This document shows, piece after piece, positions 2,577 through 35,640 of a stretch of 64,000 bases of DNA. The notes under the pieces are model-generated. The model did not search any database, had not been told where the DNA came from, and saw nothing but the letters and a program-made list of their open reading frames with translations. How positions within the stretch are numbered: position 1 is the stretch's first letter; every line of letters starts with the position of its first letter. The translations under genes and the position numbers were made by a program. Origin of the DNA: Asparagopsis taxiformis (taxonomy: Eukaryota > Rhodophyta > Florideophyceae > Bonnemaisoniales > Bonnemaisoniaceae); assembly GCA_030407315.1 (NCBI GenBank), contig JALQPE010001924.1:1-64000 (forward strand), in the 5' to 3' direction.

Positions 2577-2918
2577 GGTTGTTGAGTTGGAAAGGAAAAG
2601 AGATGGTTGACGTTGACGTATTCGAGTGATGTGGATGGTATGTTTCACGTTAAGTTGAAGAATGGTCGTGAACGCCAATCGCTGGAAATAATAACACAAT
2701 ACAACCGAAATTTTGTTAGGTACACACCTATCGTGACCGCTGGAATGCAAGACAGGCAATCGAGATGTGAGTGTCCGTTCAGAACGGGCCCGAGTCGGGC
2801 TCTCGAAACCTGACGAGGTGGCGTGAAGCAGGCAGTGTCCTTGATGTGTAATGTGTTAAAATTACAGCTGTCAAGCTAGGCGGCTTTTGGGGCGGCTGCG
2901 AGCACCCCTTTATCCGGG

Positions 2919-4040
2919 GAACACCCTGATTTGAGTTAAAATTTGGGCTATTCTCAAAAACATGCACATGTGAACATGTTTTTGAGATGGGGGTGTGCCG
3001 TACGGCACAATCGACCCGCCCAAATCGTTGATTTTTGCAAGATTTTTTGTGCCCGAAATTTTAGAATTTCTGGGCTGGCCAGCAGTGCATCTGAGATGGA
3101 CATCCACCGGACGTCCATTTCAGGTTGGTCGTGTGCTGCCTACATCCACGCATTGCAGCAACTAAGCAGGCGGGTTCACTACTAATATAAAGTGCACGGA
3201 ATATGAGTAACGTGATGGGTGAGTAGTGTTTCTGTTGAGGGAGTAAGGCGGGACCATGATGAAACACGGAAGAAGATTTCTCCCTAGCATAACTTAGGCT
3301 TGAAGCCTGCAATCGGCCCATCTTCCGGCGCCATTTAGCCTCACAGTTAGTGCTTACAGAAGCCAGTGATGACCCCGCTCGGGGCGGCGGCCGGTTCCTG
3401 GGGCCGTTGTGGCCAAATTAGACACCCTGATTTGAATTAAAATTTGGGCTATTCTCAAAAACATGCACATGTGAACATGTTTTTGAAATGGGGGTGTGCC
3501 GTACGGCACAAACGACCCGCTGAAATCGTTGATTTTTTACAATTTTTTGTGCCCGAAATTTTAGAATTTCCGGGCTGGCCAGCAGTGCAATCGAGCTGGA
3601 CATCCACCGGACGTGCATTTCAGGTTGGTCGTGAGAGAGTGGGGTGGGACCATGATGGAACAAGGACCAAGACCTGTCCCTGGCGTATTGAGCCTGAAAT
3701 TGACCCTTTGTCAGACGCCATTTAGCCTTACAGTTAGTGCTTACAGAAGCCAGTGACAACCCCACTCGGGGCGGCGGTCGGTTCCTGGGGCCGTTGTGGC
3801 CAAATTAGACACCCTGATTTGAATTAAAATTTGGGCTATTCTCAAAAACATGCACATGTGAACATGTTTTTGAGATGGGGGTGTGCCGTACGGCACAATC
3901 GACCCGCTGAAATCGATGTTTTTTGCAATATTTTTTCTGCCCTGAATTGTAGAATTTCTGGGCTGGACAGCAATGCAACTGAGCTGGACATCCACCGGGC
4001 GTCCATTTCAACTTGGTCTTGTATTTTGCATCTGCACGCA
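2919..4040 (+). repeat. left arm: three tandem hairpin-rich units
   Basis: The units begin near 2919, 3421 and 3808 (the last step is 387 bp; the first unit is about 115 bp longer). Each holds a 12-base inverted repeat, CTCAAAAACATG with CATGTTTTTGAG, around a CACATGTG core. Next come the perfect palindrome GTGCCGTACGGCAC, AT-rich sequence, and a GAAATTTTAGAATTTC-type palindrome (altered in some units). Units two and three are joined by GGCCGTTGTGGCCAAATTAGACACCC. The arrangement resembles subterminal repeats of DNA transposons, where a transposase or silencing protein may bind, but no binding protein is identified. Confidence 0.75.
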
Positions 4041-4238
4041 TAACAGCAACCAAGCAGTCAGGTTCACTGCTCGGACGAAGTGCACCTAGAGTGTGAACGA
4101 TTGGTTTTTGACAGGCGAGTACTGCCGAATAGGTTTCACCCTGGACTAATGGTGGCTGGACATTCTGCATTATATGATATACTTCAACTCTGGAACGTAG
4201 CTTTATTTGTAGTCGAAATGAAAACATCTTTCGTGACC

Positions 4239-7200
4239 CTAATTCCATGCTCTAAACGCTGTCCCATAATGAACGTAGAGCTCCTGCCCCGGACGGATAT
4301 CGCGGATTGCACGTACTACAATGATCTTCGGATTTTCTAGGTCCTTCGCCTTGAGCTTCTTCCCCGTCGAACCGCTGCTGTAGTTCTCGACAAACTCGAC
4401 GTTGGCCATCCGCCTGGTGTCTTCCGCCGGAGTGTCCTCACCTCGCAAATACCGCGGGTCGTTGATGAACTGCGCCGAACAGAACGGAGCCGGAACAATC
4501 CAAATTGGATGCTCGATGTTTTCGTCGTCCTCCGCTGTTGCATACAGCTTGATAGCATACATCAAGAATGTTTCCTTCGTTATCGCCATGTGACCCTCTC
4601 CGTACGCGAACCTCATCGACTCCTTGCTCATATCAGAGTACACAACAGTTCCGTAGTATGCACATACTTCGTCACCAACATTAAATGTCTGTTCAGCGAA
4701 GAGCCCTCTTCCTGCATTTGGATGCTTAATCAGCGATGGTCGAACGCTCAATTTTTTCGCAACACAATCGTGTGCCCGCATCACGCGAGGGTTTTCAGTT
4801 TGCAACCAGCGGCGCAGGGAAGGTGGCCAATAATGTACCGGTTTCTCCATGTGCTCGCGCGACGCAATCGACTCTGGGCACAGCTGCCAGAGGTACTGCC
4901 GAATATATTTCGGGAACCTCTGGTACAGGGGAAGGCCAGGTGGGGGTTCGATGATCCTGCGTTCCCTCTGCGTACGCATCGTGACAGAGGGGGACGCCAA
5001 GAACTTCTCAGCACTCTGTTTCGCTTCTGTCGTGACCCTCATGTCAGTGTTGTTTGAAAGAATTACACGTGACATGACTGCACACAGCTTTGGAAGCGAT
5101 CGTACCACACACAATTTGTCCATGTCACTGCCGACGAAAACACGGTGCTCAGGCAAGCTCATAGCTGCTTTTCCCGTTGCGAAAGTGCCAGAGAATGGAT
5201 CGACAACAATATCACCAGGCTGTGAATGCTGGCTGATCAACTCCATCATGAGAGCGACGCTCTTCTGCTCTGCACGAACTCTGACCGTAGCACCGGTTGT
5301 GCTCCTTGTTCGCCACACCATCTCATTCGAATCGATGGCGGGCATATTGATGGTGACGTTGCACCACGCCGGGTACGTGCCGTCCATGTATCCGTGGTTC
5401 CTATAGGCCACCATCTCGCTTCCGGTCTTGAACGGAACACCTCGCTTCCAGAAGTGGATAGCGACCTCTGCCATGTTCATGCGTTGGTACCTCTTCCGCC
5501 CCGGCATTTGATAGAGGTGCCCAGGTAGTCGGACAAACAACAGAGGTACCTCGTCAACGAAGAAAACTGAATTCCGAACGACGTCCTCCTCCTCCTCGTC
5601 CTCCTCCTCATCCGCACTTTCTTCGCCACTGTGCTGCGATGCTTCGGAGTCCGAATTCATGGACGTAACCTCTTCTTCATCCGACCCGTCATCACTGGCA
5701 GCAGTATCGGTTGGGCCTTCTGACTGCGGTCCTTTGTACGTTTCCAAGTAATGGAACCATTCGTAGAACTGCAAAACCGAGCAGAACACGATGCCGTGGC
5801 CACCGGGGCGCAACAGCTCGTCAAACACTTCGATGCTAGCCTGCATATCTTCTGCAGTTAGCCTGTCGTACGAAGAGTTGGAATCGTTCCTCTTACGACG
5901 AACATTGTAGGGCGGATCAGTCAGAATGAGCTGAACGTTGCCCGTGATGGGCACGTGTTCTCGGCTCTCGTCGGCACTGACCAAATCTTCGAAAGGGACG
6001 TCGTACACCCGGCAATACTGACTCATTTTCGAAAGAAAGTCCTTTGCGAGAGCCTGCCCTTCACTTTCCTGCTCTTCTGTCGCATGGGGTGACGGTGACG
6101 GGGGAGACGGCCCTTGGGCAGTAAGACTGGTCCTCCCAGGTCCAAGTTGAAGCCTGGTTGTGTGTCTTGTCGACGGAACCAAACCTCTCCCTCCTGTGTT
6201 GCGACGAGTGGGAGTGTCATCAACCGGCTTGGGGACCTTTTCTGCGTCCGCGGCTTGTGGTGCCGGGCGGAGGACAGCCATAACGTCTTCGTCGAGGGTG
6301 TCAAAATACGCTGGCAGCTTGTCCGGATTTCCGCTTGAGAAGTATATTTCCAGTGCCCCCCAGCGGTCGGACTCCGGCCAGGTGTACAGGTCCGGGTTGA
6401 CGATAAGAAACTGCAACCGGTCGAAGAACTTCCTCACAAGGTCCCTAAATGCACTGTGCTGCGCACTGGTTCTTGTCTCTACTTTTCCACCATATCCATC
6501 AGGATGAGATAGGGGAGCTTTGTTGTGGTAGAGATCTAGCTTCTGCTCCATCGGTGCGAATAGACCTTCATCGAGCACGTCAAACCAATGCTCACTGCTG
6601 TCGAAAATGATGTACGGCGCCATCAACTCTTCGAAGCTGGAAAACTTTGCGGCGTAGGCCACATCGGTCCAAGCATGGTATAAAACTTGAACCACGTAAC
6701 AAGCTCGATTAGTGCTTTTCCGATGGGCTGGGACGCGTGCGGCTTCGTTCCCCTCTTCGGCCGCATCTCCTATTCGGCGACGCGGCAGGTTCTTGTTGTG
6801 ATTTCGGATGATAGACAACGCTTGGAAATACATCAATACCTCGAACGTTTCCGGTGGAGCAAGAACGAAGGCGCTTGGTTCCCCGCGCTGCGGCGCCTGT
6901 AGTGGCGAAGGAAGCATGTTACATCCAATAAGGAAGGTCTGCGGCACGATCCCAGAAAGGATGCAGTGCTCAACCCATTGCCCGATACGCTCATCCTGTC
7001 TTGAAAACTCGGCAATGGGTAATGCCAGACGAACAATCTGCTTGGCTCGCTCAACGTTCATCTCTGCCATGACGATTTCGGCAACATCCGCCTCGACTCC
7101 AGCATTCTTCGAACGACCGCTGAAGGACATGCTGAGTCGACCTTGCAGCGCCACAAATTGTTCTTCCGTGCCCTGCGCAACCCAAGCGCCAAGGTCCGCG

Positions 7201-7436
7201 TATGTGAAACCTCCCGGCTTGTCCGTCAAGTCTGCGAAACTTGAGTGGGCGAATAAATCCAGCAAGAGGCGGAGGAAGTCTTTGCCAGCGAGAGTAGTTT
7301 CGCGGGCGGCGCGACCTACGTTTCGACGTGTACCCATGTCACTAGAATCCTCCCAAGGGCTAGCGGGTTCGCGCAGAATTGGCACGGTTGCGTCGTCAAC
7401 GATCGGATTGCTGTTGCGCCTGCGCTTATTCGTCAT
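4239..7436 (-). CDS. DNA N6-adenine methyltransferase (beta class) fused to a SET domain
   Basis: The start chosen is ATG at 7436 (MTNKRRRNSN, a basic possible nuclear signal); the frame stays open another 86 codons upstream, but those look non-coding. The protein has 1065 residues. About 1-480 are unrecognised. DPPYN (motif IV) is near 507, an acidic low-complexity insert of Glu, Asp and Ser near 590-640, and DPFSGTFATG (motif I, S-adenosylmethionine binding) near 745. Motif IV preceding motif I marks the beta class, and DPPY suggests adenine-N6 methylation of DNA. Residues ~900-1060 form a SET domain: GRGLFA, an INDP...ANVEF segment and RDIRPGQELYVHYG. SET domains usually methylate protein lysines. 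The fusion therefore predicts one protein writing both a DNA and a protein mark in the nucleus. No internal stop or frameshift was seen. Confidence 0.8.
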   Translation of the reverse strand: MTNKRRRNSNPIVDDATVPILREPASPWEDSSDMGTRRNVGRAARETTLAGKDFLRLLLDLFAHSSFADLTDKPGGFTYADLGAWVAQGTEEQFVALQGRLSMSFSGRSKNAGVEADVAEIVMAEMNVERAKQIVRLALPIAEFSRQDERIGQWVEHCILSGIVPQTFLIGCNMLPSPLQAPQRGEPSAFVLAPPETFEVLMYFQALSIIRNHNKNLPRRRIGDAAEEGNEAARVPAHRKSTNRACYVVQVLYHAWTDVAYAAKFSSFEELMAPYIIFDSSEHWFDVLDEGLFAPMEQKLDLYHNKAPLSHPDGYGGKVETRTSAQHSAFRDLVRKFFDRLQFLIVNPDLYTWPESDRWGALEIYFSSGNPDKLPAYFDTLDEDVMAVLRPAPQAADAEKVPKPVDDTPTRRNTGGRGLVPSTRHTTRLQLGPGRTSLTAQGPSPPSPSPHATEEQESEGQALAKDFLSKMSQYCRVYDVPFEDLVSADESREHVPITGNVQLILTDPPYNVRRKRNDSNSSYDRLTAEDMQASIEVFDELLRPGGHGIVFCSVLQFYEWFHYLETYKGPQSEGPTDTAASDDGSDEEEVTSMNSDSEASQHSGEESADEEEDEEEEDVVRNSVFFVDEVPLLFVRLPGHLYQMPGRKRYQRMNMAEVAIHFWKRGVPFKTGSEMVAYRNHGYMDGTYPAWCNVTINMPAIDSNEMVWRTRSTTGATVRVRAEQKSVALMMELISQHSQPGDIVVDPFSGTFATGKAAMSLPEHRVFVGSDMDKLCVVRSLPKLCAVMSRVILSNNTDMRVTTEAKQSAEKFLASPSVTMRTQRERRIIEPPPGLPLYQRFPKYIRQYLWQLCPESIASREHMEKPVHYWPPSLRRWLQTENPRVMRAHDCVAKKLSVRPSLIKHPNAGRGLFAEQTFNVGDEVCAYYGTVVYSDMSKESMRFAYGEGHMAITKETFLMYAIKLYATAEDDENIEHPIWIVPAPFCSAQFINDPRYLRGEDTPAEDTRRMANVEFVENYSSGSTGKKLKAKDLENPKIIVVRAIRDIRPGQELYVHYGTAFRAWN

Positions 7437-7769: not shown

Positions 7770-7950
7770 GGGGATGTCCGACTCAGATGCATTGCTGGCC
7801 AGCCCAGAAATTCTACAATTTCGGGCAGAAAAAATATTGCAAAAAACATCGATTTCGGCGGTCGATTGTGCCGTACGGCACACCCCCATCTCAAAAACAT
7901 GTTCACATGTGCATGTTTTTGAGAATAGCCCAAATTTTAATTCAAAGCAG
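7770..7950 (-). repeat. inner inverted copy of the hairpin-rich unit
   Basis: This is a partial unit in reverse orientation to the left arm. It has the same GTGCCGTACGGCAC palindrome, the CATG hairpin and the AAATTTTAATTC end (7936-7945). With the inner left unit (from 3808) it forms a tighter inverted pair around the methyltransferase gene. Confidence 0.75.
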
Positions 7951-8219
7951 GATGCAGATATTCGTCTTCTACCATTGTCAGAACACATTCGTATAACCAC
8001 ATTTGGAGAACCTGAGCCCAGAGCTATCGGTTTTGGCGGGAGCTAAGCCATATCTCATATAATCAGTAACTACTTCCCGCCAGCTGAGTGGTGGAACCCC
8101 TGCTATTTCTACCAACGAGACATACGGGGTGTCAACTCGGCAATCGTATATGATTTGGGTGCTAAATTTATTCAAGAGACGAATGGGCTTCGAAAAGGAG
8201 CCCAACTACGTCTACTTGT
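7951..8219. other. spacer inside the element
   Basis: No gene, RNA or repeat was recognised in this short spacer. Confidence 0.3.
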
Positions 8220-9039: not shown

Positions 9040-9600
9040 TAGCTAATGCATTACTGGCCAGCCCAGAAATTGTAGAATTTCGGGCAGCAAAAATATTGTA
9101 AAAAACCTTGATTTGGGCGGCCGATTGTGCCGTACGGCACACCCCCATTTCAAAAACATGTTCACATGTGCATGTTTTTGAGAATAGCCCAAATTTTAAT
9201 TCAAATCAGGGTGTCTAATTTGGCCACAACGGCCCCAGGAACCGACCGCCGCCCCGAGCGGGGTCATCACTGGCTTCTGTAAGCACCAACTGTAAGGCTA
9301 AATGGCGTCTGACGAAGGGTCAATTTCAGGCTCAATACGCCAGGGACAGGTCTTGGTCCTTGTTCCATCATGGTCCCGCCCCGCTCTCTCACGACCAACC
9401 TGAAATGGACGTCCGGTGGATGTCCAGCTCGATTGCATTGCTGGCCAGCCCAGAAATTCTAAAATTTCGGGCACAAAAAAATATTGCAAAAAACATCGAT
9501 TTGGGCGGTCGATTGTGCCGTACGGCACACCCCCATCTCAAAAACATGTTCACATGTGCATGTTTTTGAGAATAGCCCAAATTTTAATTCAAATCAGGAC
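9040..9600 (-). repeat. right arm: tandem hairpin-rich units in inverted orientation
   Basis: One complete unit and one partial unit are present. The same CAAATCAGG end occurs at 9210 and 9598 (388 bp apart). They contain the GTGCCGTACGGCAC palindrome, the CATG hairpin and the GTTGTGGCC junction, all reversed relative to 2919-4040. Confidence 0.75.
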
Positions 9601-9659
9601 GTCTTCCGGACATAGGGGTGCTCGCGGCCTAGCTCGACAGCTGTAATTGTACCTCATTA

Positions 9660-9831: not shown

Positions 9832-12117
9832 ATGCCGCCGCGTATTGCGAAGAAAGCTCCAAAGCCTCCGGGCCTCCAGAAAACCCGGTCAGCAGCTGCT
9901 GTATCGAGTGCCCGACAATCCCGTGCGAAGAAGCGGTCTGGGCCTACCGGCAGCATTGAACCGCGGTCCGGTAGTCGCAAGACGGACCGGCGCAGATCTG
10001 GGGATCCGCAGCGAGAAAGTGAGGAAGGAGGAACGGCGCGGAGAGAGATGGGGCTTGACCGAGGCAAGCGTGCTCGCAGGGACAGTGAACATCATGATGA
10101 TGACATGATAGTGGCTCAAAACATGTTGGAATTGCGGCAGAGTGCTATGGCAAAGGTAGTTCCTCCCGGGTTGGCAGATGCGGAGGTGCTGCAGACGGAG
10201 TCCCAGCCGGGGGCTTCCGACACACTGGAGGCTGTGACCCCCACTGCGCCAACTATGCCGAGTACATCAGCCCCAGCAGGTAATGCAGTCAGGGACCCGA
10301 GGATAGCGGCAAGGGATGTTGTTTCTGAGCAACGTTCACAGGATGCCAACTATCATCGGCGGTCAGGTGGTACTGAGGGGAGAGAGCAGCCGGAGTGCGG
10401 GCCTCGTCACAACAGAGTGTCATTGGTGCCAAATATGCGCGTAACGCCCCCGCGACGTCAGGCTATTGGCGATGGAGGACATCATATTCCCGATAGCGTG
10501 GGAGATGGGGGGACGGTGAGGGCAGAGAGGTTGCATCCGCCGGAATCCATCGATTTAATGGCGAGTCGCATCAATGCGCAGAAGAAGAAGATCGCGGAGC
10601 TGGAAAAAAAAGTGTTTAGCCAGGACATAGCAAACAAGGCGCTCACCACGGAGATTGTTGCGTTGGAGGCTAAGGTGAAGACTCTGCAGGCGGAAAATGC
10701 CAGCCTTACTGCAATTGCGAGAACAGGTAGAATCAGTGATCACGGTGGCGGTAAGTCGAAAATACAGAAAGCCATTCCTGTGAAATACCTTGGAGTTCTT
10801 AGGGCGGTTGAGGAAAACCTGACAAAGTGGTGCAAGAACGAGACTATGGAGCTGGACCCTATAGCGGAACAAACGCAGAGACGTTGGACTGGACGTACCA
10901 TCGAGGTAGAGCCGGTAGAAGGGGCACTTTGGAGCGAAAACGGTGTAGGATATATTGCTACCCCTCCGGGCTATATCATCAAGAATCTGCAGTGGTATAC
11001 ACCTTCGTACAGGGACGAGAGTGATCTGCTGAATGACTTGGTGCGACACGTACTGCGTCAAAGTCCGTGGTGTGATGTGTTTTCCGATGAGGAGCAGCGT
11101 GTGTGCTGTCAAGAGGCTGTGGCGGGGAGCAAGGAATTGAAAGTGAAGGTGACGCAGAAACTGTCCGACGTGATGAGTGCACGGAAGCGTAATGCGAGGG
11201 ACAGATTGTTCGGTTCGCTGGGGTACACGAAATTAATGTCTAGATGCACGATGCTGACGACGCGAGCTGAGATGGACGAGCGAGAGGAACAAAAGCGCGA
11301 AGCGTCTGAGAAGCTTTTGAAACGGGAAAGTAACGGTGATTTGGATATGGGGAGGTGGCGAACGGCACCGTTCTCAGAGCTGCGATACAGCAAAGGCTTG
11401 GTTCCTGACAGCTTCGAAATGGAAGTGAATGGTGATGCATGGTTTAACAACCGAGTAGCTGTGAATGTGCTGGACATCTTCAGGGGTTATTCGATACGAC
11501 CAGAACAAGTAATGGACATAGAGACGAGCATACTAACGCTGGCGCGCCTGGATGCTTGGCTAGTGACTACTGTGGAGTGTTTGGATGAACCGAAGGGGAA
11601 AGGAGGTGCACGGCAGAAGGAGTTTACAAGGCGGTACAGTCAATATGTGGGGGTAGCTTTTCAGCAATTAGTTGGTATGGTGGTGTACTGCATGTCTTGT
11701 CTCCAAGGCTCGCAAGCAAGGGAAGAAACGGACGTTGTCGAGAGCGAACAGCGGACTAGTGCACAGTCACGGCATGTGTTTGCAAGCCGTACTGTGACGA
11801 GAGAGGCTGTTGAAGTGTGGCAAAGCGGAGAGGGGTCTGGAATTGTTCATGTCGTTGATGATGTAAACCGCTGCTCATCACTTGTTCTAGTGTCCGAGGA
11901 TTGGATTCAATCGCATATTACGTCAAACCTCGGTGCTGTAATGGATTGTGTGATTGCGCAAGGACTAATTGGCGCAGAACTTTTCGTCGTTGACCCATAT
12001 GCTGGACACCTGACTGCAAACCTGAATGTCGAAATCAATGCCCCACAGTATGGGGGCATGGAGCGGCGCCATGCAGCCACTGCTGATAACGGTTTTGGCG
12101 TAATGGAGGATGGTTGA
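9832..12117 (+). CDS. unrecognised 761-residue protein with basic N-terminus and coiled coil
   Basis: I do not recognise a family. The start MPPRIAKKAPKPPG is followed by a ~110-residue basic, Arg/Lys/Ser-rich segment (possible nuclear or nucleic-acid-binding region) and a Pro/Ala/Ser-rich linker. A heptad-like coiled coil occupies about 243-298 (KKKIAELEKKV, TEIVALEAKVKTLQAENASL), and a longer mixed region runs to the C-terminus. It is uninterrupted, GC-balanced and ends 77 bp from the convergent transposase gene. That suggests a partner protein of the transposon, comparable in position to accessory proteins of CACTA elements, or an ordinary host gene. No enzymatic motif was seen. Confidence 0.65.
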   Translation: MPPRIAKKAPKPPGLQKTRSAAAVSSARQSRAKKRSGPTGSIEPRSGSRKTDRRRSGDPQRESEEGGTARREMGLDRGKRARRDSEHHDDDMIVAQNMLELRQSAMAKVVPPGLADAEVLQTESQPGASDTLEAVTPTAPTMPSTSAPAGNAVRDPRIAARDVVSEQRSQDANYHRRSGGTEGREQPECGPRHNRVSLVPNMRVTPPRRQAIGDGGHHIPDSVGDGGTVRAERLHPPESIDLMASRINAQKKKIAELEKKVFSQDIANKALTTEIVALEAKVKTLQAENASLTAIARTGRISDHGGGKSKIQKAIPVKYLGVLRAVEENLTKWCKNETMELDPIAEQTQRRWTGRTIEVEPVEGALWSENGVGYIATPPGYIIKNLQWYTPSYRDESDLLNDLVRHVLRQSPWCDVFSDEEQRVCCQEAVAGSKELKVKVTQKLSDVMSARKRNARDRLFGSLGYTKLMSRCTMLTTRAEMDEREEQKREASEKLLKRESNGDLDMGRWRTAPFSELRYSKGLVPDSFEMEVNGDAWFNNRVAVNVLDIFRGYSIRPEQVMDIETSILTLARLDAWLVTTVECLDEPKGKGGARQKEFTRRYSQYVGVAFQQLVGMVVYCMSCLQGSQAREETDVVESEQRTSAQSRHVFASRTVTREAVEVWQSGEGSGIVHVVDDVNRCSSLVLVSEDWIQSHITSNLGAVMDCVIAQGLIGAELFVVDPYAGHLTANLNVEINAPQYGGMERRHAATADNGFGVMEDG

Positions 12118-12194: not shown

Positions 12195-15100
12195 TTATTC
12201 TTCTTCATTATCATCTGTGAATTGGTAATCAGTGTTGGTGTAGAAGCGGTTGAGATAGAAACGGTGGTCCGACCAGTGCATTTGTTTCGTAAATGGCTTG
12301 ACTGGAAAGTTACTTCGTACGATGTGCACGGTGCCAGATATAGTAGATGCAGGAATGAGGTCAAACCAAGGACCACCTGCACTGTGGGATGCAGTGTCAT
12401 TGCTGTCAACGGATCCGTTGTCCGGGTCCCATGTGGACCACTTTAAACAAATGCACCCAAGTGATTTTTCCACAGCGGTTTTTGGGGCAAAGCAGGTCAT
12501 ATACTGAACGAAAGCGAGTTCTACAGGTTGAAACAGGTTTGGAGACTGCAGGCGTACCAGTGCCAGGACGCGCCCTACCCATATGGTTCTGTAGTCATCG
12601 GCAGTTCCGGAGATGACGACAAAGGAGTACTGCGATCTCTTTGCGGGGCCGAACGATGAAGTTGCAAAGACGCGCTGCTGCTTGTGCCTCGACACGTTTG
12701 TGGGGCGAAGCATGCCACTGTGCGGGTCAAAGTCGTCGGCATCTGGGACGTACCCTCCCATGACGTAGGCGGACTTTACCACGGTGACGGAAATGTCCAT
12801 GTCATGTATTGGAGGGCCTTCTGCCGTGGCGCGCAGTCTAGCGAGGGTGAGGAACGCTTGTGCAGCTGTGTCACCGAGTTGCTGGAATAGCGTTATGGTG
12901 CCAGACGGGAACGAGGAGTTGTGCAGCGGCAAAAGAGTGGCAGGATCGGGCTGTCCGTCGATATCTGCAACGAGGAGGGTTGCATCGGGCAGCAGGGAGG
13001 CAAAGTCGTGCAGTGCAACGGTGAATCCGTCGCGAACGAGTACTGCACCGTCTGTGGGCGATATCATGCGTGCGTTTCCCAATGTGTTCGATGGGGTATG
13101 ACCAGTTGGAGTGGCCAAGGAGAATTCCATGTGGCGAATAGTCTCTTCCATGGCTGTGGAGCGCCTTCGAGAGGTTTTCCTATAACTCTGTTTGAACAGA
13201 AGATGCGAGTGTTCGTAGGGGCCTGCATCAATGTGTTCCAGGGCGCCATATCTCTGCAAGTCACCGGGAAGATGGTCTAGAAGATGGAACTTGAAAGTTT
13301 TGAGACCTGTGGTGTGGAATGGGCCGAGGGTGGAGAGCATTGATTGTTTGAAATAGGAAATGGAGTTCTGGAGGCTTTCTAGTTCGGCGGCAGTCCAGTG
13401 CTTGATGCGACCGCGTTTCATGACCCATGCGACGAGGTCAGAGTATTGCGTGCAGATGGAAGTGAGGGGGGCTGTATCTACTTCGTCACAGCATGTGTCA
13501 ATGAATGCTGCGATGAAAGGGAACACCATGTCGACATGGTGATAGTCTTTGGCTGCGAGCATGCCGCGTATGCCGTCCTCCGTGAAGAGGCCGTTCAAAT
13601 TGGTGCCCTTCTCACCCTTGGAGAAGTCGACATGAAGACCGGTGATGTAGTAGTCGCGTTCGATAGCGGACAGAATGCTGTTTGAGCCGGCGAGGATGGA
13701 TTTTTTCACCTTCTTGAAGGTGCGAGGTGTCCCGGAATGGGAGGCAGTGGTGGTGGTGAGGTCTGGGGAGCTGAGGCGGTGGACAATGCACTGTTTGATG
13801 AGCTTTGAGATGCCGAGGTGGAGATTGTGCAGAGGCTCGAAGGAGAAAATGTTGTAGGGGTCTAGGGGACTGTTGGTGGGTAAAAGAGCGGTCGATTCGA
13901 GGACAGAGTGTTGTTCGAGGAGGGAGAGAGCTTCGAGCGGAGCAGTTGTATGCTCCTGAGCGCTCTCTTGGCGTGCAGAGCGTGTATCATCGAGGGAGCG
14001 GGGCTGGTGTGGCGCGGTGGATTCAAGTTGAGTGGCGGGGATGTAGCAGCGGTGGCAGGGATGTGTGGTGGTAGTGCTGTTGCGAGTGCATGAGAGCTCT
14101 TTGGCCTCTGGAAAGTCGCAGCAATAATTGGCTAGGATGGGAAAGCATTGGCGGGCAGTTGCAGTGGAGTCTGTGCAGGGGAACCCGGAAGAGAACGCGG
14201 TGGATAGGGACGAAAACACTTTTTCGAGTGCTTTATGAAGAATATCAATTTTGCGAGCGCGACTAGCAGAACTAGAGGTTGTCGGCATTTCATCACCGAA
14301 CAAGGCGTTGGACGAAGGGTTAACAATGTACGGAAGATACCCGACGATGGTGAGGCCGGTACGGATGCAGTGGCGACGGAGGGGGGCGGAGAAGTTGAGC
14401 AGTGTGACGTGTATGGGGTATGCGACGATTGCGGAGCTCTTGAGGCTTGTGCTGCTCTTGTCGGAGTACACTTGGAGGAGGCCGGCAAAGGAGGAAGCGG
14501 TGGGATCATTTTCCTCTGCCCATACGACCTGTGGATCTTCCGAGAGCTGCACGCGCTGTCTAGTAACCTGGTGCAGCGTTTTCGCGAATTCTGTGTGTAG
14601 GGGATGAGAAAATATTGCGGTGCCGTCTGGGGCGGTCTGTGGGGAGGGGTGGAAGAGAGTATTTTGGTCGTTAGCCAGTGCTAACTGCCTGCGGAGCATG
14701 TCGACTGGGTCGCGGAGGTACAGCTGTGCCGAGTACTTACCAGTTTTGTCTGGAATGATGTGGCTCTTGTAACCTTCGGTGCGGAAATGTGTTTCGACCA
14801 TGGAAGCGGTAACGTGGCGACATTCTTCTACGGTGCGAACGGCGCTGTTGAACTTTTCTAGGGAGAATGCGGGGTCTTGTAGGATGGTGATGACTTCGCT
14901 CACGCGGCCAGCGCCGGCCTTGTACTCGAGGGTTGTGAGACTGGCGGCGAGGGATTGCACGAGGAGGTCTGCGCGGGAGGGGGTTGAGGTTGGTGGCAGT
15001 GAAGCGTCACAGGGTGAGTCGCTGGAGGAAGCACGACCAGATTCTGGGTCTGGGGAGCTGGGTTGCGGGGAATCATGGTCGCCGTTTCGAGCAGGCTCAT

Positions 15101-15236
15101 GGGTGACGGCAGGGACACGAGCGTTGTTGAAATGTTGGGGAGAGGGGTTGAAACGGTAGCGACACGTTCGCTCATGCAGCGCGAGCGCATAAGCATCTAC
15201 GCAGTAGTAGAAGCACCCTTCATACTTGCATTCCAT
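12195..15236 (-). CDS. zinc-finger DDE-type transposase, CACTA/Plavaka-like
   Basis: The 1013-residue uninterrupted protein opens MECKYEGC. A C2HC finger (C3, C8, H21, C25) is followed by a Ser/Pro-rich linker. Later segments resemble the CACTA/TNP2/Plavaka transposase group: a DFPEAKELSC segment followed by a HPCHRC finger-like pair, then FEPLHNLHLGI, and near residue 660-700 FHLLDHL, RYGALEHIDAGPYEHSH and FKQSYRKTSRR. In the relatives I recall, the residue before P-x-H is usually Asp; here it is Glu. Transposases of this group cut and paste DNA between terminal inverted repeats. The frame being fully open suggests recent function. No CACTA-type termini were found around it, so the element limits are unknown; a domesticated gene is the alternative. 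Confidence 0.7.
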   Translation of the reverse strand: MECKYEGCFYYCVDAYALALHERTCRYRFNPSPQHFNNARVPAVTHEPARNGDHDSPQPSSPDPESGRASSSDSPCDASLPPTSTPSRADLLVQSLAASLTTLEYKAGAGRVSEVITILQDPAFSLEKFNSAVRTVEECRHVTASMVETHFRTEGYKSHIIPDKTGKYSAQLYLRDPVDMLRRQLALANDQNTLFHPSPQTAPDGTAIFSHPLHTEFAKTLHQVTRQRVQLSEDPQVVWAEENDPTASSFAGLLQVYSDKSSTSLKSSAIVAYPIHVTLLNFSAPLRRHCIRTGLTIVGYLPYIVNPSSNALFGDEMPTTSSSASRARKIDILHKALEKVFSSLSTAFSSGFPCTDSTATARQCFPILANYCCDFPEAKELSCTRNSTTTTHPCHRCYIPATQLESTAPHQPRSLDDTRSARQESAQEHTTAPLEALSLLEQHSVLESTALLPTNSPLDPYNIFSFEPLHNLHLGISKLIKQCIVHRLSSPDLTTTTASHSGTPRTFKKVKKSILAGSNSILSAIERDYYITGLHVDFSKGEKGTNLNGLFTEDGIRGMLAAKDYHHVDMVFPFIAAFIDTCCDEVDTAPLTSICTQYSDLVAWVMKRGRIKHWTAAELESLQNSISYFKQSMLSTLGPFHTTGLKTFKFHLLDHLPGDLQRYGALEHIDAGPYEHSHLLFKQSYRKTSRRRSTAMEETIRHMEFSLATPTGHTPSNTLGNARMISPTDGAVLVRDGFTVALHDFASLLPDATLLVADIDGQPDPATLLPLHNSSFPSGTITLFQQLGDTAAQAFLTLARLRATAEGPPIHDMDISVTVVKSAYVMGGYVPDADDFDPHSGMLRPTNVSRHKQQRVFATSSFGPAKRSQYSFVVISGTADDYRTIWVGRVLALVRLQSPNLFQPVELAFVQYMTCFAPKTAVEKSLGCICLKWSTWDPDNGSVDSNDTASHSAGGPWFDLIPASTISGTVHIVRSNFPVKPFTKQMHWSDHRFYLNRFYTNTDYQFTDDNEEE

Positions 15237-17400: not shown

Positions 17401-17518
17401 CGTATTGTATACGAGCAGTTTCCTAAATGAGAGAATAAAATACGGTCCGATATGGGCCCTGAATTTACCATCCGCTGTAATTTCTTCCCTCCCGGTTTTC
17501 GCTGATATATTGTATACT

Positions 17519-17950
17519 GGATGTCGGGTCCTAGTATTCCGCCATATGTACTAGAGAAAGTGGATGTCGGGTCCTAGTATTCCGCCATATGTACTAGAGA
17601 AAGTGGATGTCGGGTCCTAGTATTCCGCCAAATGTACTAGAGAAAGTGGATGTCGGGTCCTAGTATTCCGCCAAACGTACTAGAGAAAGTGGATGTCGGG
17701 TCCTAGTATTCCGCCATATGTACTAGAGAAAGTGGATGTCGGGTCCTAGTATTCCGCCATATGTACTAGAGAAAGTGGATGTCGGGTCCTAGTATTCCGC
17801 CATATGTACTAGAGAAAGTGGATGTCGGGTCCTAGTATTCCGCCAAACGTACTAGAGAAAGTGGATGTCGGGTCCTAGTATTCCGCCATATGTACTAGAG
17901 AAAGTGGATGTCGGGCCCTAGTATTCCGCCATATGTACTAGAGAAAGTGG
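17519..17950. repeat. 43 bp tandem array, ten copies
   Basis: ATGTCGGG starts at 17521, 17564, 17607 and so on every 43 bases to 17908. Copies differ at one or two positions (CATATG, AAATG or AAACG before TACTAGAG). The array runs directly into a diverged inverted pair of TGGACGTCCGC/GCGGACGTTC sequences (17949-18060), which occupy the place where the recombinase C-terminus would be expected. Confidence 0.9.
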
Positions 17951-18036
17951 ACGTCCGCATCCAAAAAATTTTTATTTTTTTTTGGACGCGGACGTTCATT
18001 TGTTCTAGTAAATCTCGGGGCCGACTAGGACCCGTA

Positions 18037-28210: not shown

Positions 28211-28846
28211 GTGCCAATGGCGAGCGATACAATGGATAGATATACTGTAATGGTGAGGCCTACTACTGTAAACTGGTTCAGTTTAGTTCAATGTGGCACA
28301 GCGATTGCGGCGCACAGCTTCATAGCCGTATGTCGATGACCATTCACAGATCATGAAGCGCGCCTCGTCGACACAAATCGCTGTCGCGACCAACGCGTCG
28401 TATCTCTTCCGTTCAATTGTCCATGTCTGTTGCTTGATGACATGCAATCACATCATTTGAATCCGCACTTGGGGTATGACACACCTCCAACTGTGTACAG
28501 GTGGTGGTCGCACTATAGATGTACAGCTGTAGAATGAAGCACGCATTCGTTGTGCATTGGGGAGGATGGAACTGTGATGCGATGCACCCTCAATTATCGT
28601 CCATCTGCACGCATGGCCATGTCCACGCGCATGCAAGTGCCCATGCCTATGCCTATGCCTATGCACGTGCACGCTCCATCAAGGTCGACGTGGACAATCG
28701 CGTCTGCGCTGCGCTGCGCTGCAATATGCCGCGCCGCGTTTCACGACGGCCTCGCATATAGACCGGAAGGTGTCCCGAGCGTCACTACTTCCCGTTCCGT
28801 GCGATAGTTTGTTAAATCCGTTTCGTTTAGTCTGGTGCACAGAAGC
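28211..28846. other. 5' flank of the giant Sel1 gene, with a short microsatellite
   Basis: No gene seen. An ATGCCT tandem (about 28641-28665) lies in a CATG-rich tract. The presumed promoter of the next gene is here. Confidence 0.4.
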
Positions 28847-31800
28847 ATGTACAGTGCTGCGAGAGCGCTTGAAGAGGGGAGCGGTGGTGTTGCGAAAGAT
28901 GTTGCGGGTGCAGTAGAACTGTACGAGCGGTGCGTTGCGGAGGAGGAGAACTATGATGCGATGCACAGACTGGGGAGGATATTGGGGCGTGGGGCGGATG
29001 GAGTGGATAGAGACAGGGGACGAGCGATAGCGTTTCTGGAGAGGGCTGTAGAAGAGAATGGGAACTGCGGTGCGATGTTTGAGCTTGGGCGACTATTAGG
29101 TGAGTGTGATTGTGGAGATGAAGTGGAGATGGATGTATATCGTGGAGTAGCATTACTGGAGAGAGCTATCAGGGAGGGGAATCATGTGGGGGCCATGGTG
29201 CATCTTGGATGGATGCTAGAAGAAGATACAAGAGGGGTCGAGCAAGATGTATGTCGTGCGGTAGGGTTATACGAGCGAGCGATAGAAGAAAGGAATCATT
29301 GCGGAGCGATGTACAATCTCGGAATGATATTGCGAGATGGTGCGGATGGTGTTGCGAGAGACATCGACCGTACAGTGTCGCTACTCGAGAGAGCGATAGC
29401 AGAAGGAGAAGATAGTGATGCAATGAATGATCTGGGATTGTTGTTCCAGTATGATATTGAAGGAGTAGAACAAGATTTACAGCGAGCAGTATCGTTATAT
29501 GAGCAAGCGATCGAGAAGGATGAGAACGTTTATGCGATGTGTAATCTGGCGATGGTACTACGAAAGGGCGGAGATGGAGTCGAGAAAGATGTGTGTCGTG
29601 CAGTATCGTTATACGAGCGAGCGATAGAAGAAGGAAATCATTGCGAAGCGATGTATTGCCTCGGAATGATATTGAAAAATGGTGCGGATGGTGTTGCGAG
29701 AGACATCGACCGTACAGTGTCGCTACTCGAGAGAGCGATAGCAGAAGGAGAAGATAGTGATGCAATGAATGATCTGGGATTGTTGTTCCAGTATGATATT
29801 GAAGGAGTAGAACAAGATTTACAGCGAGCAGTATCGTTATATGAGCGAGCGATCGAGAAGGATGGGAACGTTCATGCGATGTACAATCTGGCGATGGTAC
29901 TAGAAGAAGGGGGAGATGGAGTCGAGAAAGATGTGTGTCGTGCGGTATCGTTATACGAGCGAGCGATAGAAGAAGGGAATCATTGCGGAGCGATGTACCA
30001 TCTAGGATTGATACTAGAAGATGGAGCGGATGGTGTCGCGAGAGACATCGACAGTGCAGTGTCGCTATTTGAGAGAGCGATAGCAGAAGGAGAAGATAGT
30101 CGTGCAATGAACTCACTGGGATGGTTGTTCCAGTATGATACTGAAGGAGTAGAACAAGATTTACAGCGAGCAGTATCGTTATATGAGCGAGCGATCGAGA
30201 AGGATGGGAACGTTTATGCGATGTACAATCTGGCGATGGTACTAGAAGAAGGGGGAGATGGAGTCGAGAAGGATGTGTGTCGTGCAGTATCGTTATACGA
30301 GCGAGCGATAGAAGAAGGAAATCATTGCGAAGCGATGTACTATCTCGGAATGATATTGAAAAATGGTGCGGATGGTGTCGCGAGAGATATCGACCGTGCA
30401 GTGTCGCTACTCGAGAGAGCGATAGCAGAAGGAGAAGATAGTGATGCAATGTATGAACTGGGAGTGTTGTTCCATTCTGATGCTGAAGGAGTTGAACAAG
30501 ATTTACAGCGAGCAGTATCGTTATATGAGCAAGCGATCGAGAAGGATGAGAACGTTTATGCGATGTGTAATCTGGCGATGGTACTACGAAAGGGCGGAGA
30601 TGGAGTCGAGAAAGATGTGTGTCGTGCGGTATCGTTATACGAGCGAGCGATAGAAGAAGGAAATCATTGCGAAGCGATGTACTATCTCGGAATGATATTG
30701 AAAAATGGTGCGGATGGTGTCGCGAGAGATATCGACCGTGCAGTGTCGCTACTCGAGAGAGCGATAGCAGAAGGAGAAGATAGTGATGCAATGTATGAAC
30801 TGGGAGTGTTGTTCCATTCTGATGCTGAAGGAGTTGAACAAGATTTACAGCGAGCAGTATCGTTATATGAGCAAGCGATCGAGAAGGATGAGAACGTTTA
30901 TGCGATGTGTAATCTGGCGATGGTACTACGAAAGGGCGGAGATGGAGTCGAGAAAGATGTGTGTCGTGCGGTATCGTTATACGAGCGAGCGATAGAAGAA
31001 GGGAATCATTGCGGAGCGATGTACTATCTCGGAATGATATTGGAAGATGGAGCGGATGGTGTCGCGAGAGACATCGACAGTGCAGTGTCGCTATTTGAGA
31101 GAGCGATAGCAGAAGGAGAAGATAGTGATGCAATGTATGAACTGGGATTGTTGTTCCAGTATGATACTGAAGGAGTTGAACAAGATTTACAGCGAGCAGT
31201 ATCGTTATATGAGCGAGCGATCGAGAAGGATGGGAACGTTTATGCGATGTACAATCTGGCGATGGTACTAGAAGAAGGGGGAGATGGAGTCGAGAAGGAT
31301 GTGTGTCGTGCAGTATCGTTATACGAGCGAGCGATAGAAGAAGGGAATCATTGCGGAGCGATGTACTATCTCGGAATGATATTGGAAGATGGAGCGGATG
31401 GTGTCGCGAGAGACATCGACAGTGCAGTGTCGCTATTTGAGAGAGCGATAGCAGAAGGAGAAGATAGTCGTGCAATGAACTCACTGGGATGGTTGTTCCA
31501 GTATGATACTGAAGGAGTAGAACAAGATTTACAGCGAGCAGTATCGTTATATGAGCGAGCGATCGAGAAGGATGGGAACGTTTATGCGATGTACAATCTG
31601 GCGATGGTACTAGAAGAAGGGGGAGATGGAGTCGAGAAGGATGTGTGTCGTGCAGTATCGTTATACGAGCGAGCGATAGAAGAAGGGAATCATTGCGGAG
31701 CGATGTGCATTCTCGGAATGATATTGACAAATGGTGCGGATGGTGTTGAGAGAGACATCGACCGTACAGTGTCGCTACTCGAGAGAGCGATAGCAGAAGG

Positions 31801-34153
31801 AGAAGATAGTGATGCAATGAATGATCTGGGATTATTGTTCCAGGTTGATACTGAAGGAGTTGAACAAGATTTACAGCGAGCAGTATCGTTATATGAGCAA
31901 GCGATCGAGAAGGATGAGAACGTTTATGCGATGTGTAATCTGGCGATGATACTACGGAATGGCGGAGATGGAGTCGAGAAGGATGTATGTCGTGCAGTGT
32001 CGTTATACGAGCGAGCGATAGAAGAAGGGAATGTTTTCGAAGCGATGTACAATCTCGGGAGAATATTGCAAGATGGTGCGGATGGTGTTGAGAGAGACAT
32101 CGACCGTGCAGTGTCGCTACTCGAGAGAGCGATGGCAGAAGGAGAAGATAGTCGTGCAATGAATGATCTGGGATTGTTGTTCCAGTATGATACTGAAGGA
32201 GTTGAACAAGATTTACAGCGAGCAGTATCGTTATATGAGCAAGCGATCGAGAAGGATGCGAACGTTTATGCGATGTGTAATCTGGCGATAGTACTACGAG
32301 AAGGTGGAGATGGAGTCGAGAAAGATGTATGTCGTGCAGTATCGTTATACGAGCGAGCGATAGAAGAAGGGAATCATTGCGGAGCGATGTGCATTCTCGG
32401 AATGATATTGACAAATGGTGCGGATGGTGTCGCGAGAGACATCGACCGTGCAGTGTCGCTATTCGAGAGGGCGATAGCAGAAGGAGAAGATAGTGATGCA
32501 ATGAACTCACTGGGATGGTTGTTCCAGTATGATACTGAAGGAGTTGAACAAGATTTACAGCGAGCAGTATCGTTATATGAGCGAGCGATCGAGAAGGATG
32601 GGAACGTTTATGCGATGTACAATCTGGCGATGGTACTAGAAGAAGGGGGAGATGGAGTCGAGAAGGATGTGTGTCGTGCAGTATCGTTATACGAGCGAGC
32701 GATAGAAGAAGGGAATCATTGCGGAGCGATGTGCATTCTCGGAATGATATTGACAAATGGTGCGGATGGTGTTGAGAGAGACATCGACCGTGCAGTGTCG
32801 CTACTCGAGAGAGCGATGGCAGAAGGAGAAGATAGTCGTGCAATGAACTCACTGGGATGGTTGTTCCAGTATGATACTGAAGGAGTTGAACAAGATTTAC
32901 AGCGAGCAGTATCGTTATATGAGCGAGCGATCGAGAAGGATGGGAACGTTTATGCGATGTACAATCTGGCGATGGTACTAGAAGAAGGGGGAGATGGAGT
33001 CGAGAAGGATGTGTGTCGTGCAGTATCGTTATACGAGCGAGCGATAGAAGAAGGGAATCATTGCGGAGCGATGTACTATCTCGGAATGATATTGGAAGAT
33101 GGAGCGGATGGTGTCGCGAGAGACATCGACAGTGCAGTGTCGCTATTTGAGAGAGCGATGGCAGAAGGAGAAGATAGTCGTGCAATGAATGATCTGGGAT
33201 TGTTGTTCCAGTATGATACTGAAGGAGTTGAACAAGATTTACAGCGAGCAGTATCGTTATATGAGCGAGCGATCGAGAAGGATGGGAACGTTTATGCGAT
33301 GTACAATCTGGCGATCACACTAGAAGAAGGCGGAGATGGAGTCGAGAAGGATGTGTGTCGTGCAGTATCGTTATACGAGCGAGCGATAGAAGAAGGGAAT
33401 GTTTGCGAAGCGATGTACTATCTCGGAATGATATTGCGAGATGGAGCGGATGGTGTCGAGCGAGACATCGACCGTGCAGTGTCGCTATTTGAGAGGGCGA
33501 TAACAGAAGGAGAAGATAGTGATGCAATGTATGAACTGGGACGATTATTTCAGTTTGACACTGAAGGAGTTGAACAAGATCTACAGCGAGCAGTATCGTT
33601 ATATGAGCAAGCGATCGAGGATGATGCAAATTGTGACGCAATGTACAACCTGGTAACTATACTGCAGGATGGGGGACATGGTGTCGAGAAGGATGTTTGT
33701 CGTGCAGCGGCATTGTTGCAGCGTGCCATCGATGAATGGGATAATTGTCGGGCCATGGTTGAGCTCGGAGAGATGCTGGAGCGTGGCTCCGGGGTAGACA
33801 GAGACATCCGTCGCGCCATCAAGCTATACGAGCGAGCCATCGAGGAGGAAAGTAATGCTCGTGCAATGATGAATTTGGCATCCCTCCTGGCAAAGGGTGG
33901 TGATGGTTTCGAACAAGATGCAATCCGTGCAGTGGCACTATATGAGCGAGTTGTGGATGAGTATGACAATCCGTACGCCGAGGTGTATCTTGGAAGAATT
34001 CTAGCGTACGGGGCGCGCGGTGTAGAAGCAGATAGAGGTCGGGCTGAAAGACTATTGCGCAGGTGTGCAGAGCGGAATCTAGAGGGGGATGTGGATGTGG
34101 TCAAGGAGCTTGCCGAGTTGGTGATATCAGTGAAAACTAGCACGGAGGAGTGA
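28847..34153 (+). CDS. giant Sel1-repeat protein, 1768 residues
   Basis: The start is placed at ATG 28847 (MYSAARALEEG), because the paralogues start MYAAAKALEQG; the frame opens 12 bases earlier at a GTG. The protein is almost wholly Sel1-like repeats of about 38 residues (near 46), with the form AVSLYERAIEEG-x5-AM-x2-LG-x4-DGADGVARD. Sel1 repeats are alpha-alpha solenoids related to TPR that act as protein-binding scaffolds, for example in ER-associated degradation and signalling. No signal peptide, membrane segment or catalytic domain is visible, so a soluble scaffold is inferred. The centre is built of 342 bp super-repeats; the ends are more diverged. No stop or frameshift over 5.3 kb implies selection on the frame. 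Confidence 0.85.
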   Translation: MYSAARALEEGSGGVAKDVAGAVELYERCVAEEENYDAMHRLGRILGRGADGVDRDRGRAIAFLERAVEENGNCGAMFELGRLLGECDCGDEVEMDVYRGVALLERAIREGNHVGAMVHLGWMLEEDTRGVEQDVCRAVGLYERAIEERNHCGAMYNLGMILRDGADGVARDIDRTVSLLERAIAEGEDSDAMNDLGLLFQYDIEGVEQDLQRAVSLYEQAIEKDENVYAMCNLAMVLRKGGDGVEKDVCRAVSLYERAIEEGNHCEAMYCLGMILKNGADGVARDIDRTVSLLERAIAEGEDSDAMNDLGLLFQYDIEGVEQDLQRAVSLYERAIEKDGNVHAMYNLAMVLEEGGDGVEKDVCRAVSLYERAIEEGNHCGAMYHLGLILEDGADGVARDIDSAVSLFERAIAEGEDSRAMNSLGWLFQYDTEGVEQDLQRAVSLYERAIEKDGNVYAMYNLAMVLEEGGDGVEKDVCRAVSLYERAIEEGNHCEAMYYLGMILKNGADGVARDIDRAVSLLERAIAEGEDSDAMYELGVLFHSDAEGVEQDLQRAVSLYEQAIEKDENVYAMCNLAMVLRKGGDGVEKDVCRAVSLYERAIEEGNHCEAMYYLGMILKNGADGVARDIDRAVSLLERAIAEGEDSDAMYELGVLFHSDAEGVEQDLQRAVSLYEQAIEKDENVYAMCNLAMVLRKGGDGVEKDVCRAVSLYERAIEEGNHCGAMYYLGMILEDGADGVARDIDSAVSLFERAIAEGEDSDAMYELGLLFQYDTEGVEQDLQRAVSLYERAIEKDGNVYAMYNLAMVLEEGGDGVEKDVCRAVSLYERAIEEGNHCGAMYYLGMILEDGADGVARDIDSAVSLFERAIAEGEDSRAMNSLGWLFQYDTEGVEQDLQRAVSLYERAIEKDGNVYAMYNLAMVLEEGGDGVEKDVCRAVSLYERAIEEGNHCGAMCILGMILTNGADGVERDIDRTVSLLERAIAEGEDSDAMNDLGLLFQVDTEGVEQDLQRAVSLYEQAIEKDENVYAMCNLAMILRNGGDGVEKDVCRAVSLYERAIEEGNVFEAMYNLGRILQDGADGVERDIDRAVSLLERAMAEGEDSRAMNDLGLLFQYDTEGVEQDLQRAVSLYEQAIEKDANVYAMCNLAIVLREGGDGVEKDVCRAVSLYERAIEEGNHCGAMCILGMILTNGADGVARDIDRAVSLFERAIAEGEDSDAMNSLGWLFQYDTEGVEQDLQRAVSLYERAIEKDGNVYAMYNLAMVLEEGGDGVEKDVCRAVSLYERAIEEGNHCGAMCILGMILTNGADGVERDIDRAVSLLERAMAEGEDSRAMNSLGWLFQYDTEGVEQDLQRAVSLYERAIEKDGNVYAMYNLAMVLEEGGDGVEKDVCRAVSLYERAIEEGNHCGAMYYLGMILEDGADGVARDIDSAVSLFERAMAEGEDSRAMNDLGLLFQYDTEGVEQDLQRAVSLYERAIEKDGNVYAMYNLAITLEEGGDGVEKDVCRAVSLYERAIEEGNVCEAMYYLGMILRDGADGVERDIDRAVSLFERAITEGEDSDAMYELGRLFQFDTEGVEQDLQRAVSLYEQAIEDDANCDAMYNLVTILQDGGHGVEKDVCRAAALLQRAIDEWDNCRAMVELGEMLERGSGVDRDIRRAIKLYERAIEEESNARAMMNLASLLAKGGDGFEQDAIRAVALYERVVDEYDNPYAEVYLGRILAYGARGVEADRGRAERLLRRCAERNLEGDVDVVKELAELVISVKTSTEE
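29340..33700 (+). repeat. thirteen 342 bp super-repeats in the Sel1 gene
   Basis: GATAGT anchors occur at 29411, 29753, 30095, 30437, 30779, 31121, 31463, 31805, 32147, 32489, 32831, 33173 and 33515, each exactly 342 bases apart. Each unit encodes three Sel1 repeats (114 residues). The units anchored at 30437 and 30779 are nearly the same. Confidence 0.95.
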
Positions 34154-34800: not shown

Positions 34801-35640
34801 ATGTACGCTGCCGCGAAGGCGCTTGAACAAGGGACCAGCCAGGCTGGAAAAGATGTTGCCGCTGCAGTCCAACTATACGAGCGGTGCATTGCGGAAGAGA
34901 ACAACTATGAGGCGATGTACAGACTGGGGAGGATATTGAGTCGTGGAGCGGAGGGAGTCGAGAGAGACGGGGGAAGAGCGATGGGGATACTGGAGAGGGC
35001 TGTGGAAGAAGGCAGTAACTGCGATGCGATGTATGAACTAGGTCGTTTGATGGAAGTCGGTGACGAGGCCTTCGAGCGAGATGTGCGACGTGCCGTGTCG
35101 TTGTACGAGCGAGCGATCGAGAGGGACGGCAACTGTAGTGCAATGAATGACCTAGGATTGATACTGCTCTACGGCGAAGTTGGTGTGGAGCAGGACGAGC
35201 TTCGAGCAGCTGAGTTATTTGAACGAGCAATCGCCGAGGGAAATAATTGTCACGCTATGGTGCATCTCGGATGGATGCTGGAGGGAGATATGGGTATCGA
35301 TAGAGACATCACACGCGCTATTATGCTCTACGAACGAGCCATTGAAATCGGAAATGATCATCAGGCGATGATGAAATTGGCTTCAGTGCTTATCGATGAG
35401 GTTGCGGATGTCGAACAAGACGCTGCTCGGGCTGTGTCGCTGTATGACAGAGTAGTGAGAGAGGATATCCACGCGGATGTAGTGCTCAACCTCGCGAGAA
35501 TTATGGTGTATGGCGCACCTGGTGTTGAAGCGGATTTCTTGCGAGCTGAAAGACTTTATCAGATTTGTTGCGACGAGAAGATGGATTCGGATGTGATTGA
35601 TGATCTCGCAGGCTTGTTGGTGTCAAGTAAACTGGAGTAG
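34801..35640 (+). CDS. Sel1-repeat protein, 279 residues, copy 1
   Basis: Starts MYAAAKALEQGTSQ at an ATG in ACC context and has about seven Sel1 repeats (for example AVSLYERAIERDGNCSAMNDLGLILLYG). It ends AGLLVSSKLE, an ending shared with the 547-residue paralogue. It is a short, probably cytosolic scaffold without other domains. The first 243 bases of the block (34778-35020) are shared with the other two genes of the family in this window; beyond that it differs from the 547-residue gene, placing a crossover or conversion limit near 35020. Confidence 0.8.
   Translation: MYAAAKALEQGTSQAGKDVAAAVQLYERCIAEENNYEAMYRLGRILSRGAEGVERDGGRAMGILERAVEEGSNCDAMYELGRLMEVGDEAFERDVRRAVSLYERAIERDGNCSAMNDLGLILLYGEVGVEQDELRAAELFERAIAEGNNCHAMVHLGWMLEGDMGIDRDITRAIMLYERAIEIGNDHQAMMKLASVLIDEVADVEQDAARAVSLYDRVVREDIHADVVLNLARIMVYGAPGVEADFLRAERLYQICCDEKMDSDVIDDLAGLLVSSKLE

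Follow-up and report, generated by a model that had tools for sequence, protein, structure and literature searches.

A conserved gene uniting a phage-type DNA methyltransferase with a SET domain in Asparagopsis taxiformis, a candidate dual chromatin writer

A 64,000-nucleotide stretch of contig JALQPE010001924.1 from the red alga Asparagopsis taxiformis (the window) contains a gene in which a beta-class DNA methyltransferase and a C-terminal SET domain share one uninterrupted frame. The fusion is conserved among homologs, and the motifs of both families are largely intact in the window copy. We infer that the product may be a bifunctional chromatin writer, with a DNA amino-methyltransferase and a SET lysine methyltransferase in one protein, and we place the probability of this reading at roughly 0.45. 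Activity, target base, target lysine and nuclear action are predicted from sequence, as is any coupling of a DNA mark to a protein mark.

The frame was open from its ATG (position 7436) to its TAG (position 4239), yielding 1065 residues with zero internal stops, whereas 60 mononucleotide shuffles of the window produced no open frame longer than 245 codons. When the product was searched with Pfam, PF01555 and PF00856 both scored above their cut-offs (Table 1), and nothing else in the protein did so. A preliminary description made from the sequence alone had proposed this profile check and had claimed the uninterrupted frame, the methyltransferase with a C-terminal SET domain in one polypeptide, and a DPPYN motif ahead of DPFSGTFATG; all of this was borne out, and the motif order is the permuted one of beta-class enzymes. 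The same description had an acidic insert separating the two enzymes, which needs correction. The insert (39% aspartate plus glutamate) is internal to the methyltransferase, falling between its motifs IV and I, and this segment varies in length from 10 to 59 residues across the 15 rows of our alignment (the window protein, P0001, and 14 homologs). The enzymes are set apart by a conserved linker.

Table 1. Coordinates of the fusion gene, its domains and the flanking repeats in the window.
Feature	Position	Strand	Details
Methyltransferase-SET fusion gene	4239..7436	-	Translation, Pfam, 14 homologs
N-terminal helical domain	6252..7334	-	Residues 35-395; no Pfam match or structural match found
PF01555 N6_N4_Mtase	5115..5936	-	Residues 501-774; E-value 3.4e-15, 57 bits (cut-off 26.7)
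Motif IV DPPYN	5904..5918	-	Residues 507-511
Acidic low-complexity insert inside methyltransferase	5565..5744	-	Residues ~565-624
Motif I DPFSGTFATG, S-adenosylmethionine-binding loop	5172..5201	-	Residues 746-755; D-x-F-x-G-T in 15/15 rows
Conserved methyltransferase-SET linker with PPGLPxxQ...P block	4767..5069	-	Residues ~790-890
PF00856 SET domain	4263..4712	-	Residues 909-1058; E-value 1e-6, 29.5 bits (cut-off 22.4)
Left modular inverted repeats	2849..4085	.	Outermost 2849-3133 pairs with 9390-9659, 86.7%
Right modular inverted repeats	9046..9659	.	9047-9604 pairs with 3420-3977, 93%
Extra partial repeat copy, upstream of the gene's ATG	7772..7954	.	

Judged by its homologs, the fusion forms a conserved family. 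A whole-length protein search, which scored only the 7,994 candidates with the most shared words, returned seven proteins (P0002 at 98% identity and P0003-P0008 at 28-33%). When the methyltransferase-SET part of P0003 served as query, 12 rows were returned, seven of them new (P0009-P0015), bringing the homologs to 14, of which 13 are just 26-37% identical. An alignment-based protein search found P0002 only; its words came from the poorly conserved first 500 residues, and the result is uninformative on absence. Precomputed Pfam assignments placed both domains in 11 of the 14 homologs and PF01555 alone in P0005, P0007 and P0013; our Pfam scan of the alignment (E-value ≤0.01) detected PF01555 in 15/15 rows and PF00856 in 14/15. 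P0005 lacks the SET end, stopping before the last SET motif, and the N-terminal domain is missing from P0008 and P0009. Of the 43 columns that were invariant in the 15 rows, the methyltransferase part contributed 29 and the linker plus SET 14; the N-terminal domain was unable to score here because two rows have no N-terminus. Mean pairwise identity, computed without the P0001/P0002 pair, was 26% for residues 35-395 (77 pairs), 40% for residues 475-790 (104 pairs) and 36% for residues 830-1065 (104 pairs). Distances in the methyltransferase and SET parts were correlated (r 0.91, p 5e-5, for 14 rows without P0002; r 0.72, p 5e-5, with P0002, P0005, P0008 and P0009 excluded), a relationship that is no formal congruence test, and separate trees of the two domains were weakly resolved. 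The family assignment and single-polypeptide architecture of the preliminary description thus stand on both Pfam and conservation.

The fusion is, by this comparison, no chimera of the assembly, because 14 separate database proteins align across its methyltransferase-SET part. That two genes were joined by misassembly or chance read-through is accordingly a negligible prospect: no supporting point was found, the same domain order recurs in 13 proteins at 26-37% identity, and the 1065 open codons compare with at most 245 in the shuffles.

By its matches, the methyltransferase domain is phage-like. The closest Protein Data Bank (PDB) entries by sequence were the adenine-specific methyltransferase DpnA (E-value 5e-8), then CcrM (E-value 0.0026). 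In PHROGs the domain matched phrog_67, a DNA methyltransferase (E-value 8.1e-17), and the family profile matched 80 of 2,800 open reading frames from 78 IMG/VR loci, which had been preselected by shared motifs. PADLOC matches for P0001, P0003 and P0010 (best 25 each) were nearly all to restriction-modification or orphan methyltransferase models. The window copy retains DPPY in motif IV, EQK in motif X and DPFSGT in motif I. The presence of DPPY instead of SPPY leans toward adenine as the target. PF01555-type domains have evolved either specificity, N6-methyladenine (6mA) or N4-methylcytosine (4mC), repeatedly, so the domain alone cannot tell the two apart (PMC8885841).

The C-terminal domain of the fusion is recognizable as a SET fold, and the window copy keeps GxG (as GRG), YYG and the C-terminal tyrosine (residue 1057). 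YYG is present in 14/15 rows (FYG in P0013), and the C-terminal catalytic tyrosine (ELxxxYG) in 14/14 rows that extend that far; at this motif the window copy has HYG, and DYG is the family's commonest form. Apart from changes shared by the whole family, the window copy shows typical residues at the motif positions examined. No pre-SET or post-SET match was found in the fusion protein by Pfam at an E-value of 1. With family SET profiles, the best MLL-type chain scored 28.9 bits (6-row profile), and three viral-contig SET proteins scored 28-31 bits (15-row profile), approximately equal to the MLL-type chain. Two IMG/VR contigs carry small stand-alone SET genes, two side by side in L079 (4379-5002 and 4989-5636, plus strand) and one in L080 (4989-5615, plus strand), with an ND-type motif at the position of NHxC; both contigs also hold terminase-like and PhoH-like genes, as judged by eye.

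The structure of the N-terminal helical domain was predicted with confidence (predicted TM-score, 0.80), and no structural match was found for it, an absence from match lists that leaves room for a family. Transposase and DNA-binding folds were considered for this domain and had no structural match, which again leaves room for such a family. No chromodomain was detected in the fusion protein by Pfam at an E-value of 1.

In the explanation that we prefer, the phage/bacterial-type beta-class amino-methyltransferase, most likely an N6-adenine enzyme, would act on DNA, while the SET domain would methylate a lysine in a protein close by, most probably a histone, and the N-terminal domain would probably handle targeting or assembly. 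As members of their families, both halves are expected to use S-adenosylmethionine, the methyltransferase on DNA bases and SET on lysine. With the two enzymes tethered, every binding event could mark DNA and protein at one site, and since this fusion is found again in divergent relatives, a single protein may write both kinds of mark. More tentatively, the gene might travel in a ~6.8-kb element bounded by inverted repeats and keep itself expressed by marking its own DNA, a role like that proposed for TET/JBP genes carried by transposons. By analogy with known systems, we favor a pair of writers that would render the surrounding chromatin permissive, perhaps to the benefit of a mobile element; the sequence fits a silencing role just as well.

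Several observations weigh against two active enzymes and lend themselves to a different account, in which one domain is enzymatic and the other has turned into a binding module (for example, a SET enzyme that the methyltransferase fold merely brings to DNA, or the reverse). Motif IV is DPPY in 10 rows (P0001, P0002, P0003 and P0009-P0015) and DPPF in P0008, and it departs from this pattern in 4/15 rows (DPPQ in P0004, APPQ in P0006, DPPL in P0007 and YPPY in P0005). Each departure is paired in the tree with a DPPY row (P0004-P0012, P0006-P0014, P0007-P0015 and P0005-P0010), the weakest of the four sister pairs being P0004-P0012 (support 85/92); for this reason the ancestor probably had DPPY and lost it several times, on terminal branches, and DNA activity seems dispensable in some lineages. 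NHxC is missing in 15/15 rows (ND in 14, NC in P0015; the window copy reads INDPR), and GxG, kept in 13/15 rows, lacks its first glycine in P0011 and P0012. Motif I reads D-x-F-x-G-T-[FLY] in 15/15 rows, with the second glycine of FxGxG replaced by F, L or Y. The preliminary description had made its case depend on neither domain losing S-adenosylmethionine-binding or catalytic residues; in the 15-row alignment the window copy keeps most motifs, and NHxC and the second FxGxG glycine are replaced family-wide. We nonetheless consider a binding module unlikely, given that the window copy has DPPY, EQK, DPFSGT, GRG, YYG and the final tyrosine, and that viral-contig methyltransferases also vary at the second glycine (GSA, GSC). 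PR-type SET enzymes such as PRDM9 are active without NHxC. A further point against a 6mA-writing fusion comes from a survey of 18 profiled species, in which robust 6mA was present only where the MT-A70 enzyme AMT1 occurs, a result that gives no support for another eukaryotic 6mA writer (PMC12695648).

The phage-like methyltransferase and the two IMG/VR contigs with stand-alone SET genes of similar ND type could also point to a gene of an endogenous eukaryotic virus, both enzyme domains having come from phages or bacteria. Scans with short patterns, which can miss relatives, yielded no fusion in viral contigs: 78 loci from 597 pattern matches had their reported matches in the methyltransferase, and two loci from 146 pattern matches with the SET part were both stand-alone SETs. 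Equally limited scans of prokaryotic genome contigs gave 0 relatives from 23 pattern matches with P0001 and, with the SET alignment, one weak match in a Spirochaetes metagenome-assembled genome among 128 pattern matches. Neither a viral nor a prokaryotic home for the fusion emerged from these scans. The family SET profiles did not separate viral-contig SETs (28-31 bits) from MLL-type chains (29 bits), and no capsid or packaging family was present among 11 window frames scanned with Pfam; a viral origin appears quite improbable to us.

Whether the gene is mobile is a separate matter. The inverted repeats that bracket it suggest a mobile element. They are modular and partly tandem, and a 14-base palindrome, GTGCCGTACGGCAC, occurs at 2995, 3496, 3883, 7868, 9127 and 9515 and nowhere else in the window. 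These copies lie three on each side of the coding part, in repeat modules with a ~36-base near-palindrome. Counting against mobility, we found no transposase inside the repeats (including by Pfam on the fusion frame), no convincing target-site duplication at the ends of the repeats (words shared near them reach 6 bases at most, about what chance would give by simple arithmetic), no second copy of the gene in the 64-kb window, and no structural match for the N-terminal domain. These points, together with the modular, partly tandem repeats, fit an immobile host chromatin gene flanked by insertions of an unrelated repeat family, a serious contender that we hold at somewhat below even odds; it concerns mobility alone and is compatible with a protein that writes both marks. 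Conversely, the outermost repeats of the two flanks pair with each other like termini, with pairing of 86.7% in modular sequence and no second copy in the window to fix the ends; P0002 belongs to a cluster of 13 sequences that might represent copies or strains; and the surroundings are rich in transposons, where one frame encodes a Plavaka transposase and others belong to two Copia-type elements. The fullest picture, a widespread selfish or ex-selfish gene family encoding a true writer of both 6mA and histone lysine methylation, steered by a new guiding domain and rendering chromatin permissive on its element, strikes us as doubtful.

The fusion shares with PF01555 beta-class enzymes (DpnA, CcrM and phage phrog_67) the domain, the permuted motifs, DPPY, QK in motif X and the D-x-F-x-G loop. 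It differs from them in having lost the second FxGxG glycine, in its internal acidic insert and in its fusion to SET as well as to an N-terminal domain for which no relatives were found. Compared with SET lysine methyltransferases (EZH2, SET8, MLL1 and SET7/9, and PR-type PRDM9), it has the SET fold match, GxG, YxG and the C-terminal tyrosine, whereas it departs in the ND-type motif in place of NHxC, the lack of a pre- or post-SET match and the attached DNA methyltransferase. To our knowledge, DNA and histone methylation are coupled in known cases through a reader domain (chromodomain, MBD or PHD) or through separate complexes.

Among described eukaryotic systems, N4CMT of bdelloid rotifers is similar in combining a bacterial/phage-type PF01555 domain with a chromatin domain, a chromodomain, and occurs alongside amplified SETDB1; the paper states that N4CMT has no eukaryotic homologs (PMC8885841). 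The N4CMT chromodomain reads a histone mark, whereas the SET domain of the fusion would write one. Transposons carry TET/JBP genes in fungal KDZ/Plavaka and other elements and SET genes in oomycete HarbingerS and MuDR, and the TET/JBP genes have been interpreted as a means of escaping silencing (PMC12730594). The fusion resembles these as a chromatin-modifying gene in a transposon-rich, inverted-repeat setting and differs in having no transposase found within the repeats, two predicted writers per polypeptide and no TET/JBP match. Eukaryotic adenine DNA methylation, proposed here for the fusion, is also the province of AMT1/MT-A70 (PMC12695648) and of fungal MetB, which has the bacterial-type N6 domain PF02384 (PMC13297926); the methyltransferase family of the fusion differs from both. 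In the AMT1 system, 6mA is located between nucleosomes bearing trimethylated lysine 4 of histone H3 (H3K4me3), a link by co-location rather than fusion, and that paper leaves open the mutual dependence of the two marks (PMC12695648).

We found no methyltransferase-SET fusion in open-licence literature by titles and the beginnings of abstracts among the matches listed. The parts are already known; combined in a single conserved protein, along with an N-terminal domain of no found kin, they appeared in none of these matches. Having both writers in one conserved polypeptide would make coupling testable by single-domain mutants, and a tethered pair would offer a clean system for the dependence between 6mA and H3K4me3. 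The gene also extends the bacterial-type PF01555 enzymes of eukaryotes beyond the rotifer case. If the prediction is correct, it would add a system for 6mA that lies outside MT-A70, and it would tie a DNA mark to a histone mark by direct physical linkage.

The window looks like transposon-rich eukaryotic DNA because of the Plavaka, Copia-type and Sel1-repeat frames around the gene, all outside the inverted repeats. The Plavaka transposase frame (12195-15236, minus strand; PF18759, E-value 1.9e-24) faces a 761-residue frame (9832-12117, plus strand) that has only weak coiled-coil-type matches; a Plavaka element enclosing the fusion gene was considered and set aside, as convincing inverted termini were not found. 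Rfam and tRNA scans of the window gave no match. Two frames (406-1806 and 1806-2576, both minus strand) lie to the left of the inverted repeats. The first appeared ParB-like by eye (VIDGLHRLNAM), an identity that we rejected after finding no match in Pfam (E-value 10), PHROGs (E-value 1) or the PDB (E-value 5). A unit of ~4,677 bases is seemingly in tandem (frames 34801-35640, 39478-40317 and 44155-45798, plus strand): two Sel1-like frames translate identically at that offset, and the third, longer frame begins alike. A 1,772-residue frame (28835-34153, plus strand) has 44 Sel1 stretches, arranged as a 342-base tandem array, and the opposite strand holds a frame of 1,338 residues; a 43-base repeat occurs 10 times in tandem at 17518-17955 with 97% matches.
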